DNA from: Oerskovia douganii
Lineage (GTDB): Bacteria; Actinomycetota; Actinomycetes; Actinomycetales; Cellulomonadaceae
Assembly (NCBI RefSeq): GCF_015142735.1
Contig: NZ_JACSPN010000002.1
Span: 124,001 to 188,000 of the forward strand
Direction of reading: 5' to 3'
Length of the DNA stretch: 64,000 nt
The translations under genes and the position numbers were made by a program. The number at the start of each line of letters is the position of its first letter. Within the stretch, counting starts at the first letter, position 1. Positions 39,435-47,069 of this stretch are shown here, piece after piece. The notes under the pieces were generated by a model. That model was not told where the DNA came from, did no database searches, and worked only from the letters and a program-made list of their open reading frames with translations.

Positions 39435-39463
39435 TTGACCATCGACAAAAGCCGGGCTATGGT
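39435..39463 (+). promoter_or_regulatory. Promoter of the ebo-type operon
   Basis: TTGACC (39435-39440), exactly 17 nt, then TATGGT (39458-39463). The spacer carries CGACAAAAG (39443-39451), whose exact inverse CTTTTGTCG lies at 39386-39394 inside the preceding terminator tail, a possible operator pair. The leader to ATG 39603 is about 130 nt. Confidence 0.65.
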
Positions 39464-39602: not shown

Positions 39603-40823
39603 ATGCACCTTCCACCCCACCACCCGACCTGGGACCACGGCCGTACGGGCATCTGGTTCGTCGGGGCCCGAGGATCCGTCGCGACGACCGCCACGCTCGG
39701 GCTGGCCGCGATCGCCTCGGGGCTGACGAGCCCCACGGGGTGCGTCACCGCACAGCCGCCGCTCGACACCGTCACGCTGCCCGCGTTCGCGGACCTCGTC
39801 GTCGGCGGGCACGACATCAGCGACACCCCGCTCGGCAAGCGCGCCGAGATGCTCGTCGAGGCCGGCATGATCCCGTTCCGCCTCCTCGAGGCCGTGCGCC
39901 CCCAGCTCGATGCCGCCGACGCAGAGATCCGGCCCGGCTACGACCCCGGCCACCGCACGGGCTCCCAGGCCGCGGCGGCCGAGGGCCTCGCGGCGGACAT
40001 CCGGTCCTTCCGCGACCGTCACGGGCTCGCCCGGGTCGTCGTGATCGACCTCGCCTCGACCGAGCCGCTGCCCGCCCCCGCTCCTGAGCTCGAGGACCTC
40101 GACCTCCTGCGCGCGGCGCTCGACGACCCCGAGCGCGAGGTCCTGCCCGCGAGCTCGGTCACGGCGTACGCCGCGCTCCTCGCCGGCGCGCCGTACGCGG
40201 GCTTCACGCCCTCCGCGAGCATGAACCTCCCGGCGCTGCACGCGCTCGCCGCCGAGCGCGGCGTGCCGTTCGCGGGGCAGGACGGCAAGACCGGCCAGAC
40301 ATGGCTGCGTTCCGTCCTGGCGCCGGCGTTCGCGGCCCGCGGCCTGCGCGTCCTGTCCTGGGCGGGGTCGAACCTCCTGGGCGGCGGTGACGGCGCGACC
40401 CTCGCCGACCCGCACGCCGTCCAGAGCAAGCTCGTCTCGAAGAACCGTGGTCTGCAGGACCTGACAGGGACCACCGTGACCCCGCTGCACATCGACAACG
40501 TCCCCGACCTGGGCGACGTCAAGGTCGCGTGGGACCACATCCACGTCGAGGGCTTCCTGGGCTCGCGCCTGACCCTGCAGACCACGTGGAGCGCCTACGA
40601 CTCGATGCTCGCCGCGCCGCTCGTGCTCGACCTGGCCCGCCTGCTGGCGCTCGCGGACGCCGCGGGCCTGTCCGGACCGGTGCCGGAGATGGGCTTCTTC
40701 TTCAAGGACCCGTGGGGGTCGGACGTGCACGCGTTCGCGGACCAGTCGCGCGAGCTGGGCGTGTGGGCGCACCGGACGAGCGCCCAGGCGGACCTGGCAC
40801 GGGCCGAGGCGAGCGAGCCGTGA
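39603..40823 (+). CDS. myo-Inositol-1-phosphate-synthase-like cyclitol phosphate synthase
   Basis: A 406-residue member of the inositol-3-phosphate synthase family. The NAD site is WFVGARGSVATT (Gly21-Thr29); the active region shows FAGQDGKTGQTWLRSVLAP and LGGGDGA, and the C-terminal catalytic half has HVEGFLGSRLTLQTTWSAYD plus LAAPLVLDLARLL. The family cyclises glucose 6-phosphate to inositol phosphate using NAD. It is divergent from standard actinobacterial enzymes used for mycothiol and PI lipids, and is the first gene of a coupled ebo-type operon, so it may make a related cyclitol phosphate. AGGAG precedes the ATG. Confidence 0.88.
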   Translation: MHLPPHHPTWDHGRTGIWFVGARGSVATTATLGLAAIASGLTSPTGCVTAQPPLDTVTLPAFADLVVGGHDISDTPLGKRAEMLVEAGMIPFRLLEAVRPQLDAADAEIRPGYDPGHRTGSQAAAAEGLAADIRSFRDRHGLARVVVIDLASTEPLPAPAPELEDLDLLRAALDDPEREVLPASSVTAYAALLAGAPYAGFTPSASMNLPALHALAAERGVPFAGQDGKTGQTWLRSVLAPAFAARGLRVLSWAGSNLLGGGDGATLADPHAVQSKLVSKNRGLQDLTGTTVTPLHIDNVPDLGDVKVAWDHIHVEGFLGSRLTLQTTWSAYDSMLAAPLVLDLARLLALADAAGLSGPVPEMGFFFKDPWGSDVHAFADQSRELGVWAHRTSAQADLARAEASEP

Positions 40824-41833
40824 GCCTGCGCGACTACCTCGACCTGGTCCGTGCTCCTGCGGTCCTGTCCGTCCTCGGCGACACGCTCGCCGGGGCGGCG
40901 GCAGGCGGCCGGTTCGCCGCGGCAGGCCACGCCCGCCGGGCCGGGGGCCCGCCCGGTCCCGCGGACGTGCGGACGTGGCGCCTCGCGCTCCTGCCGCTGT
41001 CCTCGGCCTGCCTGTACGCGGGCGGCATGGCGCTCAACGACTACGCGGACCGCGAGCTCGACGCGGTCGAGCGACCCGAGCGTCCGCTGCCCTCGGGGCG
41101 GGTCTCGCCCGCCCAGGCCCTGGCGGTCGCGTCGGGTCTGACCGTCGCAGGACTCACGCTCGCGGGAGCGGGCGGAGGCCGGCGGTCCTTCGCCCTCGCG
41201 GTCCCGCTCGCGGCGAGCGTCTGGACCTACGACCTCGTCGCGAAGGACCGCGCCGCCGGCCCGGCCGTCATGGCGGCCTGCCGGGGCCTCGACGTGCTCA
41301 TGGGCGCGGGCAGGGGACGGCTGCGGGCGGCGCTCCCGGCCGCGTCCGCCCTCACGGCGCACACCGCGGGCGTCACGGTCCTCTCGCGCGGCGAGGTCCA
41401 CGGCACGAGGACCTGGGTCGCGGCCGCTGTCGCCGCGGGTACGGCGGGCGTCGCGGGCACGGTCGCGGGCGGAGCGCTGCAGGGACTGCGACGAGGCCTG
41501 ACGTCACGGCGCGGCGCGGTGGCCCGTGACGGCCGTGGCGCCCAGGCGGTCGCGGCCCTCTCCGCCCTCTCAGCCCTCGCGTCGACGGGGGTGTACGTCG
41601 CGTCGTGCCTCCCGAAGCAGCTCTCGGCCGTCGCGCTGCCCGACGCCGCGGGCGCGTTCACGGCGACCAAGGCCGGCATCCGGGCGATGGTGCCGCTCCA
41701 GGCCGCCCTCGCGGCACGGGGAGGGAGCATGGGCGCGGTCGCGGTCCTGGCGGGGGTCGAGGTCGCGGGGCGTGCGCTGCGCGCCCGTGCACGACGCAGC
41801 CCGAGCCCGCGACCCGGGCTGAGCGAGTCGTGA
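40820..41833 (+). CDS. eboC: UbiA-family prenyltransferase (EboC / SCO3242-like)
   Basis: A 337-residue polytopic prenyltransferase. The first Mg2+-prenyl-diphosphate motif is NDYADRELD (Asn73, Asp77, Asp81) followed by RPLPSG; the second is YDLVAKDRAAG with CRGLDVLMG. Seven to nine hydrophobic segments are present. It should transfer a polyprenyl group onto a polar acceptor, which in this operon could be a cyclitol or its derivative. The GTG overlaps the TGA of the upstream gene by 4 nt, and the next gene overlaps likewise. Confidence 0.9.
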   Translation: MSLRDYLDLVRAPAVLSVLGDTLAGAAAGGRFAAAGHARRAGGPPGPADVRTWRLALLPLSSACLYAGGMALNDYADRELDAVERPERPLPSGRVSPAQALAVASGLTVAGLTLAGAGGGRRSFALAVPLAASVWTYDLVAKDRAAGPAVMAACRGLDVLMGAGRGRLRAALPAASALTAHTAGVTVLSRGEVHGTRTWVAAAVAAGTAGVAGTVAGGALQGLRRGLTSRRGAVARDGRGAQAVAALSALSALASTGVYVASCLPKQLSAVALPDAAGAFTATKAGIRAMVPLQAALAARGGSMGAVAVLAGVEVAGRALRARARRSPSPRPGLSES

Positions 41834-42771
41834 GCGACCAGGTACCCGCAGGGCCGGTCCCGCCCGTCCCCTTCGCCCTCGGGTACGGCACCAACGGGTT
41901 CACCGACCACCCGCTCGACGTCGCGCTCGACGTGCTCGCGCACGAGGGCTACGGCGCCGTGGCGCTCACGCTCGGGCACCCGCACCTGGACCCGTTCGCG
42001 CCCGACGCCGACCCGCAGGTCGCCCGGCTGCGCGAGCGCCTCGACGACCTGGGCATGCGCGTGGTCGTCGAGACCGGCACCCGCTTCCTGCTCGACCCGT
42101 TCCGCAAGCACCACCCGACCTTCCTCGACCCGGACGAGGACCTCGCGGACGTCCGCGTCCGCTTCCTGTGCCGCGCGGTCGAGGTCGCGGCGGGCCTGCG
42201 CGCGGAGTGCGTGTCCTTCTTCTCCGGAGTCCTTCCCGCAGGCACGACGGCGGAGGCCGGGTGGGAGCGCCTGCTCGCCCGGGTGCCGCGCGTCGTGGCC
42301 CACGCCCACGAGCACGGGGTCCGGCTCGCCCTGGAACCCGAGCCGGGGATGCTCGTCGAGACCGTGGCGGACGCCCTGCGGCTGCGCACGGACGTCGGGT
42401 CACCCGCCGGGCTGGGGGTCACGGTCGACCTGGGGCACTGCGTGGTCGTCGAGCCCGGGGGAGTGCGGGGCGCGCTGCTCGCCGCAGCACCGCACCTGCT
42501 CAACGTGCAGGTCGACGACATGCGGCACACCGCGCACGAGCACCTGCCCTTCGGCGAGGGCGAGCTCGACCTGGCCCTGGCCCTCGGCACGCTCGGCGAG
42601 ATCGGGTACACGGGCGTCGCGGCCGTCGAGCTGCCCCGCCACTCGTACGACGCCCCCGGGCTCGCGCACCGCAGCATGACCGCGATGACCGGCGCCTGGG
42701 CCGCGTGGAGCGCGACCGACCCGACCGCCACGACGACCACCGCATCCACACCCCAGGAGGCACTCCGATGA
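41830..42771 (+). CDS. Sugar-phosphate isomerase/epimerase (xylose-isomerase-like TIM barrel)
   Basis: A 313-residue AP-endonuclease-2-type TIM barrel. It starts FALGYGTNGFTDHPLDVALD and has metal-ligand candidates in LALEPEPGM (Glu), GVTVDLGHC (Asp, His), NVQVDDMRHTAHEH and VAAVELPRHSY (Glu). The family isomerises or epimerises sugar-like substrates. Coupled by 4-nt overlaps to the UbiA and EboA genes. It is a second barrel distinct from EboE downstream and may tailor the cyclitol or sugar part of the product. Substrate unknown. Confidence 0.85.
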   Translation: MSDQVPAGPVPPVPFALGYGTNGFTDHPLDVALDVLAHEGYGAVALTLGHPHLDPFAPDADPQVARLRERLDDLGMRVVVETGTRFLLDPFRKHHPTFLDPDEDLADVRVRFLCRAVEVAAGLRAECVSFFSGVLPAGTTAEAGWERLLARVPRVVAHAHEHGVRLALEPEPGMLVETVADALRLRTDVGSPAGLGVTVDLGHCVVVEPGGVRGALLAAAPHLLNVQVDDMRHTAHEHLPFGEGELDLALALGTLGEIGYTGVAAVELPRHSYDAPGLAHRSMTAMTGAWAAWSATDPTATTTTASTPQEALR

Positions 42772-43502
42772 CCACCCCCGCCCCGACCCCGGCAGCGGGC
42801 ACCACGCCCCCCGGCCTCGCAGCCGGTCGCCCCGACGCCCTCGCGGGACTGCTCACCGACGAGCAGGCCGCCTGGCTGGCCACGGCCCGCAGCGAGATCG
42901 CCGCGGACCCGGGCACCGCCGTCGGGCACCTGGCACGGGCCGGGCGGGCCGTGGGACGCACGCCCCTGGCGCCCGCCGCGGACCCCGCGGGCGTCCTTCA
43001 CGGGACGCTCGACGACGCCGCCCGTGCGCACCTCGTCGGGGCGCTCGCGGCCGCACTGCCCGCCGACGGCGAGTCCCTCGCGACGCACCTGACCGAGACC
43101 TACCAGCGCGGCGACACGGCCGAGCGCCGCGGCGTGCTGCGCGGGCTCGACGCCCTCGCGCTCGGCGGGACCGTGCCCCCGGCCGTCGCGTCGGCGGCCA
43201 CGGCGCTCGCAGCCGACGCCCTGCGTGCGAACGACCAGAGCCTCGTGGCCGCGGCCGTCGGGCCGTTCGCGGCCGCGCACCTCGACGACCACGCGTGGCG
43301 CCACGCGGTCCTCAAGCTCGTGTTCATGGGCGTGAGCCTCGACGCGGTCGCGGGGCTCGACGAGCGCGCCGACGACGAGCTCGCGCGCATGGCCCACGAC
43401 TTCGCGGCCGAGCGCCGCGCCGCGGGCCGCACGGTGCCCGACGACGTCGCGCGCATCGCGCCCGACCTCACCCTCCGCACGACTCACGGCAAGGACGCCT
43501 GA
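42768..43502 (+). CDS. eboA: EboA-domain protein
   Basis: A 244-residue helical protein of the EboA family. The ATG at 42768 is supported by CCAGGAGG 7 nt upstream. After a Pro/Ala-rich N-terminus, the core LTDEQAAWLATARSEIAA, ERRGVLRGLDAL, and the C-terminal AVLKLVFMGVSLDAVAGLDE with RADDELARMAHDFAAERRAA match the family ending. No enzymatic motif is known; EboA marks ebo clusters from cyanobacteria to algal plastids. Overlaps both neighbours. Confidence 0.88.
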   Translation: MTTPAPTPAAGTTPPGLAAGRPDALAGLLTDEQAAWLATARSEIAADPGTAVGHLARAGRAVGRTPLAPAADPAGVLHGTLDDAARAHLVGALAAALPADGESLATHLTETYQRGDTAERRGVLRGLDALALGGTVPPAVASAATALAADALRANDQSLVAAAVGPFAAAHLDDHAWRHAVLKLVFMGVSLDAVAGLDERADDELARMAHDFAAERRAAGRTVPDDVARIAPDLTLRTTHGKDA

Positions 43503-44380
43503 TGCGCATCTTCGACCCCCACATCCACATGACCTCCCGCACGACCGACGACTACGAGGCCATGTACGCCGCGGGCGTGCGGGCGCTCGTCGAGCCCGCG
43601 TTCTGGCTCGGCCAGCCGCGCACGACGGTCGGCTCGTTCCTCGACTACTTCGACGCGCTGCTGGGCTGGGAGCGGTTCCGGGCCACGCAGTTCGGGATCC
43701 GCCACCACGCGACCATCGCGCTCAACCCCAAGGAGGCGAACGACCCGCGCTGCACCGAGGTGCTCGACGAGATCCCGCGCTACCTCGCCAAGGACGGCGT
43801 GGTCGCGGTCGGGGAGGTCGGGTACGACTCGATGACCCCCGCCGAGGACGAGGCGTTCACGCGCCAGCTCGCCATGGCGATCGACGCGGCCCTGCCCGTC
43901 ATGGTCCACACCCCGCACCGCGACAAGCTCGTCGGGACCCACCGCACGCTCGACGTGGTGCGCGAGTCCGGGATCGCCCCCGGGATGGTCGTGGTCGACC
44001 ACCTCAACGAGACCAACGTCGCCCTCGTCAAGGACGCCGGGGCCTGGATGGGCTTCTCGGTCTACCCCGACACCAAGATGGACGAGCACCGCATGGTCGC
44101 GATCCTGCTCGAGCACGGCACCGAGCGGGTCCTGGTGAACTCGGCCGCGGACTGGGGCCGGTCCGACCCCCTCAAGACGCTCAAGACCGGGCGCGCCATG
44201 CTCGCGGCCGGGTTCACCGACGACGAGGTGGACCAGGTCCTGTGGCGCAACCCCGTCGAGTTCTACGGGCAGTCCGGCAACCTGCTGCTCGACCCCGTGC
44301 CCGGGTTCGTCGAGGGCGAGGCGCCCGCCCCGACCGCGAGCTTCGAGGGCAGCTCGGTGCTGCGCGGGGCACGGGCCTGA
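43502..44380 (+). CDS. eboB: TatD-family metal-dependent hydrolase (EboB)
   Basis: A 292-residue amidohydrolase-fold enzyme. Metal ligands are visible in order: FDPHIHM (His7, His9), VVAVGEVGYD (Glu), VMVHTPHRDK (His), VVVDHLNETN (His) and VNSAADWGRS (Asp). Its role in ebo clusters is not established biochemically. One-nucleotide overlaps join it to eboA and eboE, so stoichiometric translation is likely. Confidence 0.9.
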   Translation: MRIFDPHIHMTSRTTDDYEAMYAAGVRALVEPAFWLGQPRTTVGSFLDYFDALLGWERFRATQFGIRHHATIALNPKEANDPRCTEVLDEIPRYLAKDGVVAVGEVGYDSMTPAEDEAFTRQLAMAIDAALPVMVHTPHRDKLVGTHRTLDVVRESGIAPGMVVVDHLNETNVALVKDAGAWMGFSVYPDTKMDEHRMVAILLEHGTERVLVNSAADWGRSDPLKTLKTGRAMLAAGFTDDEVDQVLWRNPVEFYGQSGNLLLDPVPGFVEGEAPAPTASFEGSSVLRGARA

Positions 44381-45666
44381 TGCTGCTGTCCTACTGCACC
44401 AACGTCCACCCCGCGGAGGACCTCGACGGCGTGGTCGAGCAGCTCGCCCGGTACGCGGGGCCCGTGCGAGAGGCCGCAGGGCTCGACGTGCTCGGGGTCG
44501 GGCTGTGGCTGCCCGCCTCGCTCGCGCACCGGCTCTCGGCCTCGCCGCGCGCGGCCGGCGACCTGGCCCGGCTGCGGGCCGCGCTCGCCGAGCACGGCCT
44601 CCAGGTGCACACGCTCAACGCGTTCCCGTACGGCGGGTTCCACGACGACGTCGTCAAGCTCGCGGTCTACTCGCCCACGTGGGCCGACGCCGAGCGGCTC
44701 GCCTACACGCTCGAGTGCGCCGAGGTCCTCGCGGCCCTCCTGCCCGACGGCGTCGACGGGTCGATCTCGACGCTCCCCCTCGCGTGGCGCGAGCCGGGCG
44801 GGGAGCCGTGGTCGCCCGCGCAGGACGCGATCGCGACCCGGGCGTTCGAGGAGCTCTCGGCCGGGCTGCGCGACCTCGCGGCCCGCACGGGCAAGGTCGT
44901 GCGCGTCGCGGTCGAGCCCGAGCCCGGGTGCGTGCTCGACACGGTCGAGGACGTCGTGACCTGGCTCGAGGCGCGCACGGGCGGGGCCGACGAGCCCGAC
45001 GGCGCGGCCGGCACGGGGCGCACCGGCGGCATCGACCCCGCGTTCGTCGGGGTCTGCCTCGACACGTGCCACCTCGCGGTCTCGTTCGCCGACCCGGCCG
45101 CAGCCGTCGCGCGGATCACGGGGGCCGGGCTGCGCGTCGTCAAGGTGCAGGCCTCGGCCGCGCTCCACGTGGCCGAACCGTCCACGCCCGAGGCGCGCGA
45201 CGCCGTCGGGCAGTTCGTCGAGAAGCGCTACATCCACCAGGTGCGCGAGCTCGCCCCGAGCGGCGACGTGCTGCCCGTCGACGACCTGCCCGACGCGCTG
45301 GGCGAGGGTGGGGAGCCCGGGCTCCCGGGCCAGGGGCCGTGGCGCGTGCACTTCCACGTGCCCCTGCACCACGAACCCGCCCCGCCGCTGGCGGCGACGA
45401 CCGACGTGCTGCGCGAGGCCGTCGCCGCCGTGCGCACGGCGCCCCACGGCGACGAGGCGCACCTCGACGTCGAGACCTACACGTGGGCCGTGCTGCCGCC
45501 CGACTCGCCGGCGTTCGCGTCCGACGGGACCGGCGAACCCCTCGTCGCCGGCATCGCGGCCGAGCTGCGCTGGGCCACCGACCACCTCCTCGCGCCCGGC
45601 GGCGTCCACCGCCCCGGTCCCGCGCCCTCCTCGCACACCCCCCGGACCACAGGAGTCCCCGCATGA
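44380..45666 (+). CDS. eboE: EboE, metabolite-traffic TIM-barrel protein
   Basis: A 428-residue protein, longer than ordinary sugar-phosphate isomerases. It begins LLSYCTNVHPAEDLDGVVEQ, shows barrel motifs VHTLNAFPYGGFH, RVAVEPEPGCVLDTVEDV, GVCLDTCHLAVSFADP and the EboE-type VVKVQASAALHV, then a His-rich C-terminal region (VHFHVPLHHEP, LDVETYTWAVLP). ATG 44380 overlaps the eboB stop by 1 nt; an upstream extension is only a frame shadow. In cyanobacteria ebo genes are needed for export of a scytonemin precursor; the reaction of EboE is unknown. Confidence 0.9.
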   Translation: MLLSYCTNVHPAEDLDGVVEQLARYAGPVREAAGLDVLGVGLWLPASLAHRLSASPRAAGDLARLRAALAEHGLQVHTLNAFPYGGFHDDVVKLAVYSPTWADAERLAYTLECAEVLAALLPDGVDGSISTLPLAWREPGGEPWSPAQDAIATRAFEELSAGLRDLAARTGKVVRVAVEPEPGCVLDTVEDVVTWLEARTGGADEPDGAAGTGRTGGIDPAFVGVCLDTCHLAVSFADPAAAVARITGAGLRVVKVQASAALHVAEPSTPEARDAVGQFVEKRYIHQVRELAPSGDVLPVDDLPDALGEGGEPGLPGQGPWRVHFHVPLHHEPAPPLAATTDVLREAVAAVRTAPHGDEAHLDVETYTWAVLPPDSPAFASDGTGEPLVAGIAAELRWATDHLLAPGGVHRPGPAPSSHTPRTTGVPA

Positions 45667-47069
45667 AGCCCGTGCTGCTGCTCGACGTCGTCGGGCTCAC
45701 CGAGAAGGCCATCGCCCACATGCCCCGCCTGCGCCAGATGGCTGCGGGCGGCTGGCAGACCCAGCTCGCGACCGTCCTGCCCGCGGTCACGTGCAGCGTC
45801 CAGGCGACCATGATGACGGGCCTCGCACCCGCCCAGCACGGGGCCGTGGGCAACGGCTGGTACTTCCGCGAGCTCGGCGAGGTGTTCCTGTGGCGCCAGC
45901 ACAACAAGCTCGTCGAGGGCGAGAAGATCTGGGAGGCCGCGCGCCGCTCGAACCCCGACCACCGGACCGCGAACGTCTGCTGGTGGTACGCCATGGGCGC
46001 CACCACCGACGTGACCGTCACCCCCCGGCCGATCTACCACGCCGACGGGCGCAAGTCGCCCGACGCGTACATCCGCCCGCCCGCGCTGCACGACGAGCTC
46101 ACCGGGCGGTTCGGCGAGTTCCCCCTGTTCACGTACTGGGGCCCGACCGCCGCGATCACGTCCTCGGCCTGGATCGTCGACGCGACCCGCCACGTCCTGC
46201 GCACCCACTCGCCCGAGCTGACCATGGCCTACGTGCCGCACCTCGACTACGACCTGCAGCGGTTCGGCCCCGACTCCGCCCAGGCCGACGCCGCGGCCGC
46301 CGAGCTCGACGCCGTCCTCGCCCCGCTGCTCGACGACGCGGCCAACAACGGGGTCGCGGTCGTCGTGGTCTCCGAGTACGGCATCGCCGAGGCAACCCGG
46401 CCCGTGCACCTCAACCGCATCCTGCGCCGCGAGGGCCTGCTCGAGGTCTACGTGCAGGACGGCAAGGAGCAGCTCGACCCCTGGACGTCCAAGGCGTTCG
46501 CGGTCGCCGACCACCAGGTCGCGCACGTCTACGTCGACGACGCCTCGCGGCTCGCGCGCGTCGCCGACCTCCTGCGGGCCGTCCCGGGCGTCGACGAGGT
46601 CCTCGACCGCGAGGCGCAGGCCCGCTACGGGCTCGACCACGCGCGCTCGGGGGACCTCGTCGTGGTGGCCGAGCCCGGCGCCTGGTTCACCTACTACTAC
46701 TGGCTCGACGACGCCCGCGCCCCCGAGTACGCGCGTGGCGTCGACATCCACCGCAAGCCCGGCTACGACCCGGCCGAGCTGTTCTTCGACCCCGCCGACC
46801 GGCTGGCCAAGGCCAAGGCCGGCCTCAACCTCGTCAGGAAGAAGGTCGGGCTGCGGTACGCCATGAGCACGGTGCCGCTCGACGCGTCGTACGTGCGCGG
46901 CACGCACGGGCGGCTGCCCGACTCGGCGGCAGACACCCCGCTCATCCTGTGCTCGGAGGCGGAGATCCCGGCGTCGGTCGCGGCGCTCGTCGAGCGTGGG
47001 GGACAGGTGCCCGCCGCGGCGGTCAAGGGCCTGGTGCTCGAGATGCAGAACCTGGGCGTGCGGGTCTGA
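45663..47069 (+). CDS. eboF: EboF-like nucleotide pyrophosphatase/phosphodiesterase
   Basis: A 468-residue alkaline-phosphatase-superfamily protein. Features are VLLLDVVGLTEKAIAHMP (N-terminal metal Asp), PAVTCSVQATMMTGLAPAQHG (nucleophile region), VPHLDYDLQRFGPDS and VVVVSEYGIAEATRPVHLNR. In classical NPP enzymes the last motif is SDHG; here it is SEYG, so one metal-ligand set is changed. It may hydrolyse a phosphodiester or phosphate from the cluster product. ATG overlaps the eboE stop by 4 nt. It ends the seven-gene operon. Confidence 0.87.
   Translation: MKPVLLLDVVGLTEKAIAHMPRLRQMAAGGWQTQLATVLPAVTCSVQATMMTGLAPAQHGAVGNGWYFRELGEVFLWRQHNKLVEGEKIWEAARRSNPDHRTANVCWWYAMGATTDVTVTPRPIYHADGRKSPDAYIRPPALHDELTGRFGEFPLFTYWGPTAAITSSAWIVDATRHVLRTHSPELTMAYVPHLDYDLQRFGPDSAQADAAAAELDAVLAPLLDDAANNGVAVVVVSEYGIAEATRPVHLNRILRREGLLEVYVQDGKEQLDPWTSKAFAVADHQVAHVYVDDASRLARVADLLRAVPGVDEVLDREAQARYGLDHARSGDLVVVAEPGAWFTYYYWLDDARAPEYARGVDIHRKPGYDPAELFFDPADRLAKAKAGLNLVRKKVGLRYAMSTVPLDASYVRGTHGRLPDSAADTPLILCSEAEIPASVAALVERGGQVPAAAVKGLVLEMQNLGVRV

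Follow-up and report, generated by a model that had tools for sequence, protein, structure and literature searches.

Which enzyme closes the ring in an ebo operon that has no EboD, and what its replacement suggests about the product of the pathway, are the questions raised by a seven-gene locus at positions 39603-47069 of a 64,000-nt stretch of the Oerskovia douganii genome (contig NZ_JACSPN010000002.1, positions 124,001 to 188,000; henceforth referred to as 'the window'). The ebo cluster (eboABCDEF) is known from Bacteroidetes, cyanobacteria and eustigmatophyte plastids, and an isoprenoid-cyclitol product made by EboC and EboD was proposed earlier (Yurchenko et al. 2016, PMC5133447; here and below, papers are cited from portions of their text). 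Nostoc ebo mutants fail to export the scytonemin monomer (PMC6282210). In the window, the slot of EboD appears to be filled by an inositol-phosphate-synthase-like protein (henceforth INO), which is accompanied by a xylose-isomerase-like protein of the triosephosphate isomerase (TIM) barrel fold (henceforth TIM2), and the locus is made up as follows.

39435..39463, + strand: promoter-like site TTGACC-17-TATGGT upstream of INO, a consensus match alone (1 found against a mean of 0.0 in 50 shuffles)
39603..40823, + strand: INO, inositol-phosphate-synthase-like cyclase of the archaeal type, putatively in the EboD role (PF07994 and PF01658)
40820..41833, + strand: EboC-type UbiA-superfamily prenyltransferase of the SCO3242 family (NF045897)
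41830..42771, + strand: TIM2, xylose-isomerase-like TIM barrel that accompanies INO and is distinct from EboE (PF01261, 125 bits)
42768..43502, + strand: EboA domain protein, predicted to be all-helical (NF035938)
43502..44380, + strand: EboB, TatD-like metallo-hydrolase (PF01026)
44380..45666, + strand: EboE, TIM-barrel protein (NF035939)
45663..47069, + strand: EboF, protein of the phosphodiesterase fold with a remodelled metal site (PF01663, 206 bits)

From INO to EboF, the successive overlaps of the seven + strand genes, as given by stop codons and start candidates, are 4, 4, 4, 1, 1 and 4 nt, in agreement with the overlaps of 1-4 nt described in an earlier reading of this DNA made from its letters and open reading frames (henceforth the sequence-only reading). 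The five ebo names given there (EboA, EboB, EboC, EboE and EboF) were borne out by NCBIfam and Pfam scans; its count of seven genes was also right, but TIM2 was left undiscussed although it travels with INO. The unit probably begins with INO, since the promoter-like site lies 5' of it. The window shares with the canonical ebo operon the operon layout, homologous and co-located EboA, EboB, EboE and EboF and a UbiA-superfamily prenyltransferase. It differs in having INO and not EboD, an extra TIM2, and an EboC that is a member of the SCO3242 family by curated cut-off (303.2 bits on NF045897, cut-off 260) and falls below that of the EboC equivalog (133.6 bits on NF035940, cut-off 250). Because eboD, the dehydroquinate-synthase-like member of the set from the sugar-phosphate-cyclase superfamily, was found neither in the cluster nor elsewhere in the genome, we class the locus as an ebo variant and not as a canonical ebo operon. 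On balance we think that the locus probably represents a second biochemical type of ebo operon, in which INO and EboC together would make a cyclitol lipid.

INO passes both Pfam cut-offs of its family (PF07994, 169 bits, cut-off 25; PF01658, 101 bits, cut-off 27), and its nearest named relative among the matches listed is from Oerskovia enterophila (90% identity). Its best solved relative is the myo-inositol-1-phosphate synthase (Ino1) of Archaeoglobus fulgidus (1u1i, 213 bits; also 3qvs), with which it shares all eight catalytic positions checked: K276, K280, K307, K368, D227, N257, D263 and D333 of INO correspond to K274, K278, K306, K367, D225, N255, D261 and D332, whose roles in the Archaeoglobus enzyme we take to be catalytic. 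These residues are invariant in 18/18 aligned relatives (18 of the 20 proteins then in hand, with L027 and L030 omitted and L046, which is without ebo genes, included; L numbers denote loci). Unlike the Archaeoglobus enzyme, INO sits in an ebo-like cluster, and its substrate is putative. The mycothiol-type Ino1 and the five-membered-cyclitol-phosphate synthase 6k96 belong to the same superfamily, but INO matches the mycothiol-type structure 1gr0 with 33 bits, is similarly distant from 6k96 (31 bits), and reaches 23.6 bits on the mycothiol-type model TIGR03450, far under the cut-off of 638.

The genome holds two inositol-phosphate synthases, and the other copy scores 703 bits on TIGR03450. Exactly two copies are likewise present in each of 12/12 other carrier genomes, which were picked from 80 named loci, and INO as the sole source of inositol is therefore rejected for the window's genome and for those carriers. 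A tree of 118 rows places the 13 canonical Ino1 enzymes in one clade (support 100) apart from all 105 INO rows, the search being a quick one and the branch that leads to the canonical clade very long; the tree against mycothiol-pathway enzymes that the sequence-only reading had called for thus sets INO wholly apart from the mycothiol-type Ino1.

We surveyed Actinomycetota in three samples, which count regions and not independent lineages, since the named loci and the class sample share species. In the first, EboE occurs in 18 of the 296 phylum genomes searched, one of them the window's own, and 16 of the 18 regions fetched from the other 17 genomes carry INO. In the second, 106 of the 393 class genomes have EboE, and 97 regions were fetched (89 places over the EboE cut-off and new to the study, and 8 of 16 partial matches). 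Counting an ebo locus just where other ebo genes accompany EboE, these comprise 83 regions with an ebo cluster and 14 with an EboE homologue alone. INO is present in 78/83 of these ebo loci and an EboD-like gene in 0/83; among the five loci without INO, L177, L211 and L212 end at contig ends, L169 is a second copy, and L206 really lacks the gene. The third sample consists of the best 80 of at least 568 confirmed INO relatives, taken from named genomes and all from Actinomycetota: 71 are flanked by ebo genes, five of them (L052, L058, L067, L106 and L127) showing INO and EboC alone, with or without TIM2, on short stretches. A search centred on another class found EboE in 6/66 genomes, all of them already in the samples. 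The gene order of the window is common to 37/80 named loci, with 23 more differing just by EboA not being separately called, and to 65/97 class-sample regions, a conservation far beyond chance.

EboD itself was sought with the EboD-like model NF004852 (cut-off 333 bits), scoring at most 4-5 candidates per genome, and no match over the cut-off was obtained in the 393 class genomes or the 296 phylum genomes; two class genomes have matches below it, at 213 and 220 bits. As a positive control, 3/3 EboD proteins tested, of eight in hand, pass at 531-585 bits. The single PF01761 match in the window's genome scores as AroB and reaches 169 bits on NF004852, with a neighbour that reads by eye as chorismate synthase, and since this is the sole dehydroquinate-synthase-like gene found, we rejected an EboD elsewhere in the genome. 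The substitution of EboD by INO, which the sequence-only reading had noted at this locus, is general in Actinobacteria. That reading had held that an EboD-like gene elsewhere, or an INO that supplied all inositol, would speak against the substitution; what we found is AroB only, with none of the 393 class genomes passing NF004852, and a second Ino1 of the mycothiol type.

EboE was rejected as a sufficient marker of ebo, since in 14/97 class-sample regions no other ebo gene accompanies the EboE homologue. Six of these homologues are full length and over the curated cut-off (L190, L220, L224, L225, L228 and L239) and eight are partial and under it; the neighbours scanned in L190, L224 and L239 are unrelated enzymes, including an aldehyde dehydrogenase, an E1 dehydrogenase/transketolase and a flavin adenine dinucleotide (FAD) oxidoreductase. 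Two second ebo copies without INO, L025 and L169, share their genomes with a copy of the INO type, and the first residues of the protein encoded 5' of EboC in L025 resemble those of an FAD-dependent oxidoreductase.

Outside Actinomycetota, coverage extended to 9 of 16 plasmid records with EboE and to eight INO records (H71, H77, H78, H80 and four unlisted records being left out). Eight of the nine EboE loci, from Azospirillum, Aureibacter, two Deinococcus, Ketogulonicigenium, Salipiger, Mycetohabitans and Roseivivax, are of the EboD type: all eight carry a dehydroquinate-synthase-like gene, and INO and TIM2, searched for in each, were detected in none. In the ninth, from Gemmatirosa (Gemmatimonadota), INO, TIM2 and EboC adjoin EboB, EboE and EboF. 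Three haloarchaea found via INO (Halocatena, Halobaculum and Natronococcus) have INO, EboF, TatD, UbiA and two TIM2-like genes in partly divergent blocks, with no recognised EboE at these three loci, and a fourth, Halomarina, has an INO relative without ebo genes.

We considered which other genes change with the cyclase. TIM2 is present in 73/78 INO-bearing class-sample loci, and in 24/80 named loci it is fused to EboA in one reading frame. A loss of EboA in the 23 loci mentioned above was rejected, since EboA is fused behind TIM2 in 24/24 tested (those 23 and one more) and went uncalled through a rule that keeps one match per reading frame. EboA homologues of various Actinobacteria were earlier stated, as 'data not shown', to be fused to a xylose-isomerase-like protein (PMC5133447). 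Mycobacterium gastri, M. szulgai and M. ostraviense (L086, L089 and L091) have an INO-type ebo cluster with such a fusion of TIM2 to EboA. In EboC, N73, D74, D77, D81 and R155 are kept in 27/27 sequences, and the NF035940 cut-off is also missed by the EboC proteins of Azospirillum, Mycetohabitans, Halocatena, Halobaculum and Gemmatirosa.

Trees of EboB, EboC, EboE and EboF were built with 17 chosen actinobacterial loci and the window (the EboC row of L137, one of the eight EboD-type loci, was not recovered). The EboC tree splits by cyclase type with one change (support 74/77, rising to 100/100 without the long Aureibacter row), and the best EboB, EboE and EboF trees show no such split. A single origin of the INO type according to the EboB and EboF trees was rejected, the best trees needing 3 and 2 changes, and in both Gemmatirosa lies outside the actinobacterial clade. 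The cyclase, TIM2 and the EboC clade co-segregate in the best trees. The best reading is that INO, TIM2 and EboC may have moved as a cassette on a shared scaffold of EboB, EboE and EboF. The idea of a cyclase substitution stood, both grounds named against it having come to nothing, whereas a one-for-one gene swap did not, since TIM2 joins INO and EboC has its own clade.

The remaining proteins are common to both types of locus. EboA passes its model (NF035938, 149 bits, cut-off 50) and has a predicted structure (predicted local distance difference test score 91), for which a fold search gave no PDB match at E <= 0.001. EboE also passes (NF035939, 417 bits, cut-off 250), and its eight candidate metal-site residues are kept in 25/25 sequences. 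In EboB, H7, H9, E105, H136, H167 and D217, presumably the metal ligands of a TatD-type enzyme, are kept in 28/28. The predicted model of EboF has the fold of nucleotide pyrophosphatases/phosphodiesterases, and Thr43, Asp195 and His415 are retained. Measured against what we take to be the two-metal ligands of alkaline-phosphatase-like phosphodiesterases, however, the canonical set is incomplete: Q199 stands where phosphonoacetate hydrolase has His, and E238-Y239 where the hydrolase has Asp-His. Among 28 sequences from both ebo types, Asp-His is replaced by Glu-Tyr in 28/28 and His by Gln in 26 and by Leu in 2 (haloarchaeal), and the first Asp ligand is kept in 16/28. Because the Asp-His pair and one His are lost in 28/28, the phosphodiesterase label of EboF is doubtful. 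We rejected EboF as the phosphatase for a phosphorylated INO product, since EboF is found in both types with the metal site altered in both; that it is a plain phosphatase of this kind seems unlikely.

Dehydroquinate-synthase-like cyclases and inositol-phosphate synthases are unrelated, both use nicotinamide adenine dinucleotide, and both close a sugar phosphate to a carbocycle; the inositol-phosphate synthase retains the phosphate and the dehydroquinate-synthase-like cyclase expels it, a loss described for the latter reaction in PMC5133447. In the pathway that we propose, INO would, as its intact catalytic residues suggest, make an inositol phosphate from a hexose phosphate (most likely glucose 6-phosphate), and this cyclitol would stand in for the presumed EboD product, a cyclitol formed from sedoheptulose 7-phosphate. 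TIM2, to judge from its linkage and fusion, might isomerise or epimerise the sugar phosphate before ring closure or the cyclitol after it. The matching EboC would then prenylate the cyclitol or its phosphate to give a membrane lipid, which EboA, EboB, EboE and EboF might process, or with whose help they might transport metabolites across the membrane or anchor them there, as has been reported for the scytonemin monomer in Nostoc. Since INO would retain the phosphate, the acceptor of EboC may be phosphorylated, which offers a possible reason for the EboC clade changing with the cyclase; the analogy is with glycerol-phosphate prenyltransferases, which EboC resembles (PMC6282210).

On the isoprenoid-cyclitol idea, one cyclase type would be expected to stand in for the other next to prenyltransferases of the same family. 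Two unrelated cyclitol-forming families that occupy the same slot, and were not seen together in the loci examined, make a natural experiment that favours a cyclitol intermediate, and this supports, without proving, a prenylated cyclitol as the ebo product. We go further only tentatively, with a proposal that we would sooner doubt than assert: Ebo may be a modular pathway for undescribed prenylated cyclitol membrane lipids in bacteria, haloarchaea and plastids, in which a cassette of cyclase and matching prenyltransferase (and, in the inositol type, a TIM isomerase) is exchanged on a conserved scaffold of EboB, EboE and EboF, the head group being inositol-derived in Actinobacteria and haloarchaea and sedoheptulose-derived elsewhere, and EboF being repurposed, with altered metal site, in both types.

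Several observations weigh against the cyclitol pathway proposed here for a second type of ebo operon. INO is absent from L025 and L041 in the first sample, the former a second ebo copy beside a full one and the latter also without EboC and TIM2 and with EboE matches in two pieces, and from L169 and L206 in the class sample, where no contig end explains it; conversely, INO relatives lie without ebo genes in 9/80 named loci. The cassette is incomplete in places: TIM2 was not found in 5/78 INO loci, the space next to INO is too small for EboC in three INO loci (L178, L184 and L234), two of which (L178 and L184) also gave no TIM2 or EboF (in L181, L187 and L195, where EboC was not called, a gap of 1.4-1.7 kb would accommodate it). 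Ketogulonicigenium, of the EboD type, has another annotated sugar-phosphate isomerase beside EboB, to which TIM2 gave no match. The cassette argument also hangs largely on one chimeric locus, that of Gemmatirosa, and the EboC split rests on 7 EboD-type rows. Forcing Gemmatirosa into the actinobacterial clade is rejected for EboB and EboF in approximately unbiased (AU) tests (p 8.6e-12 and 0.0086), but these values are weaker than their numbers because the groups tested were named after the quick trees had been seen and because the EboB tree carries a long-branch warning. The best EboE tree places Gemmatirosa outside too, but there the test does not reject the forced placement (p 0.18), nor is a placement of the Gemmatirosa EboC on the EboD side rejected (AU p 0.0875 and 0.145). 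Lastly, we found no ebo metabolite described in the literature examined.

Other explanations have to be set beside a prenylated cyclitol. INO could be a second supplier of ordinary inositol, for phosphatidylinositol, mycothiol or use as an osmolyte, co-expressed with ebo genes whose product is inositol-free, EboD having simply been lost. We regard this as unlikely: the catalytic residues do look like those of a usual inositol-phosphate synthase, and INO loci outside ebo clusters exist, several with sugar-use genes (6/9 with a glucose/sorbosone-dehydrogenase domain), but all 12 carriers tested already have another Ino1, in the samples INO was nowhere accompanied by an EboD, the gene order is kept across actinobacterial families, and INO, TIM, UbiA, TatD and EboF occur together in haloarchaea (in partly divergent blocks) and in Gemmatirosa. 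It is less probable still, in our estimate, that there is no cyclitol lipid at all and that EboC prenylates an aromatic or indolic metabolite which the cluster moves across the membrane, EboD or INO just tuning a sugar-derived part. Such a role is suggested by Ubi-297, a relative of EboC that prefers an aromatic acceptor in vitro and farnesylates 8-hydroxyquinoline-2-carboxylic acid (PMC9235831), a result that counts against our proposal, by the Pseudomonas EDB cluster, which yields indoles from tryptophan (PMC9655573), and by the Nostoc mutants (eboA, B, C, E, F and whole cluster; eboD is not among them), which keep the scytonemin monomer in the cytoplasm (PMC6282210). The substrates described for Ubi-297 are, however, aromatic, with no cyclitol assay in the portions of that paper cited here (PMC9235831), and if the ring were incidental, the swap of one cyclitol-type cyclase for an unrelated one would go unexplained.

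A third possibility is that the INO-type cluster is a sugar-oxidation accessory that serves nearby secreted sugar dehydrogenases and 3-keto-sugar enzymes, scytonemin-like export being a special case. A glucose/sorbosone-dehydrogenase domain was found in 75/154 actinobacterial ebo regions (71 named and 83 class-sample regions, five of the latter without INO, with overlapping species and hence counts that are not independent) compared to 0/14 regions with EboE alone, and in one of the three haloarchaeal loci (L132); two such dehydrogenase proteins that were scanned also carry ThuA and 3-keto-disaccharide-hydrolase domains. A cluster of flanking open reading frames is common to 93/162 loci of other carriers (by single linkage, so that domain families may be merged), and in one of its members, a large protein, a glucose/sorbosone-dehydrogenase domain is combined with ThuA and 3-keto-disaccharide-hydrolase domains. 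The window's own flanks, however, hold none of these conserved neighbours, and the dehydrogenase domain was found by this search in 0/8 EboD-type loci, though one is annotated with a nearby pyrroloquinoline quinone-dependent dehydrogenase. A link of the INO-type cluster to extracytoplasmic sugar chemistry is possible, but the accessory role as a whole strikes us as improbable. The neighbourhood of the cluster repeatedly contains large multidomain proteins (glucose/sorbosone dehydrogenase, ThuA, CBM6, PKD and 3-keto-disaccharide hydrolase; e.g. L156:3-3761), accompanied by Gfo/Idh, ROK and sugar ATP-binding cassette (ABC) transporter genes, and a similar multidomain protein lies at an INO locus without ebo genes (L090:5936-9769).

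The ebo cluster and the isoprenoid-cyclitol idea were known already; what is new here, as far as we found no earlier report, is the replacement of the cyclase. A search of openly licensed papers found none that links these families or reports the INO-for-EboD variant, which is not proof of absence, and a word-start search for 'inositol' in the text of PMC5133447 returned nothing. In Streptomyces coelicolor, SCO3242 gives its name to the NCBI prenyltransferase family of the window's EboC, and SCO3243 is annotated, like INO, as a 'myo-inositol phosphate synthase', but in the cited portions of PMC3610822 the pair is treated as part of the calcium-dependent antibiotic (CDA) region SCO3210-SCO3249, with ebo unmentioned there. 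The ebo cluster is widespread, and the second cyclase type offers a handle on its product. Streptomyces accounts for 28/47 plasmid records with EboE and 25/44 with an INO relative, and because the inositol type is found in these tractable bacteria and its starting metabolite would be a known one that is easy to label, the product question can be tested by isotope labelling and gene deletion. If the cassette holds, neither the cyclase nor the prenyltransferase should be exchangeable without the other.

INO relatives also occur in other settings. Relatives of both INO and TIM2, separated by 5-6 kb and unaccompanied by ebo genes, are found in Roseomonas, Methylobacterium and Hymenobacter; on the Roseomonas (L046) and Hymenobacter (L139) plasmids they are clustered with YcaO and Gfo/Idh genes, joined in Roseomonas by a methyltransferase and a glycosyltransferase, and the unannotated Methylobacterium locus (L138) has a similar spacing. 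Three Micromonospora loci (L078, L081 and L085) have INO relatives without ebo genes, and in L081 the gene adjoins a DegT-type aminotransferase and a carrier-protein domain, neighbours which suggest an aminocyclitol pathway.

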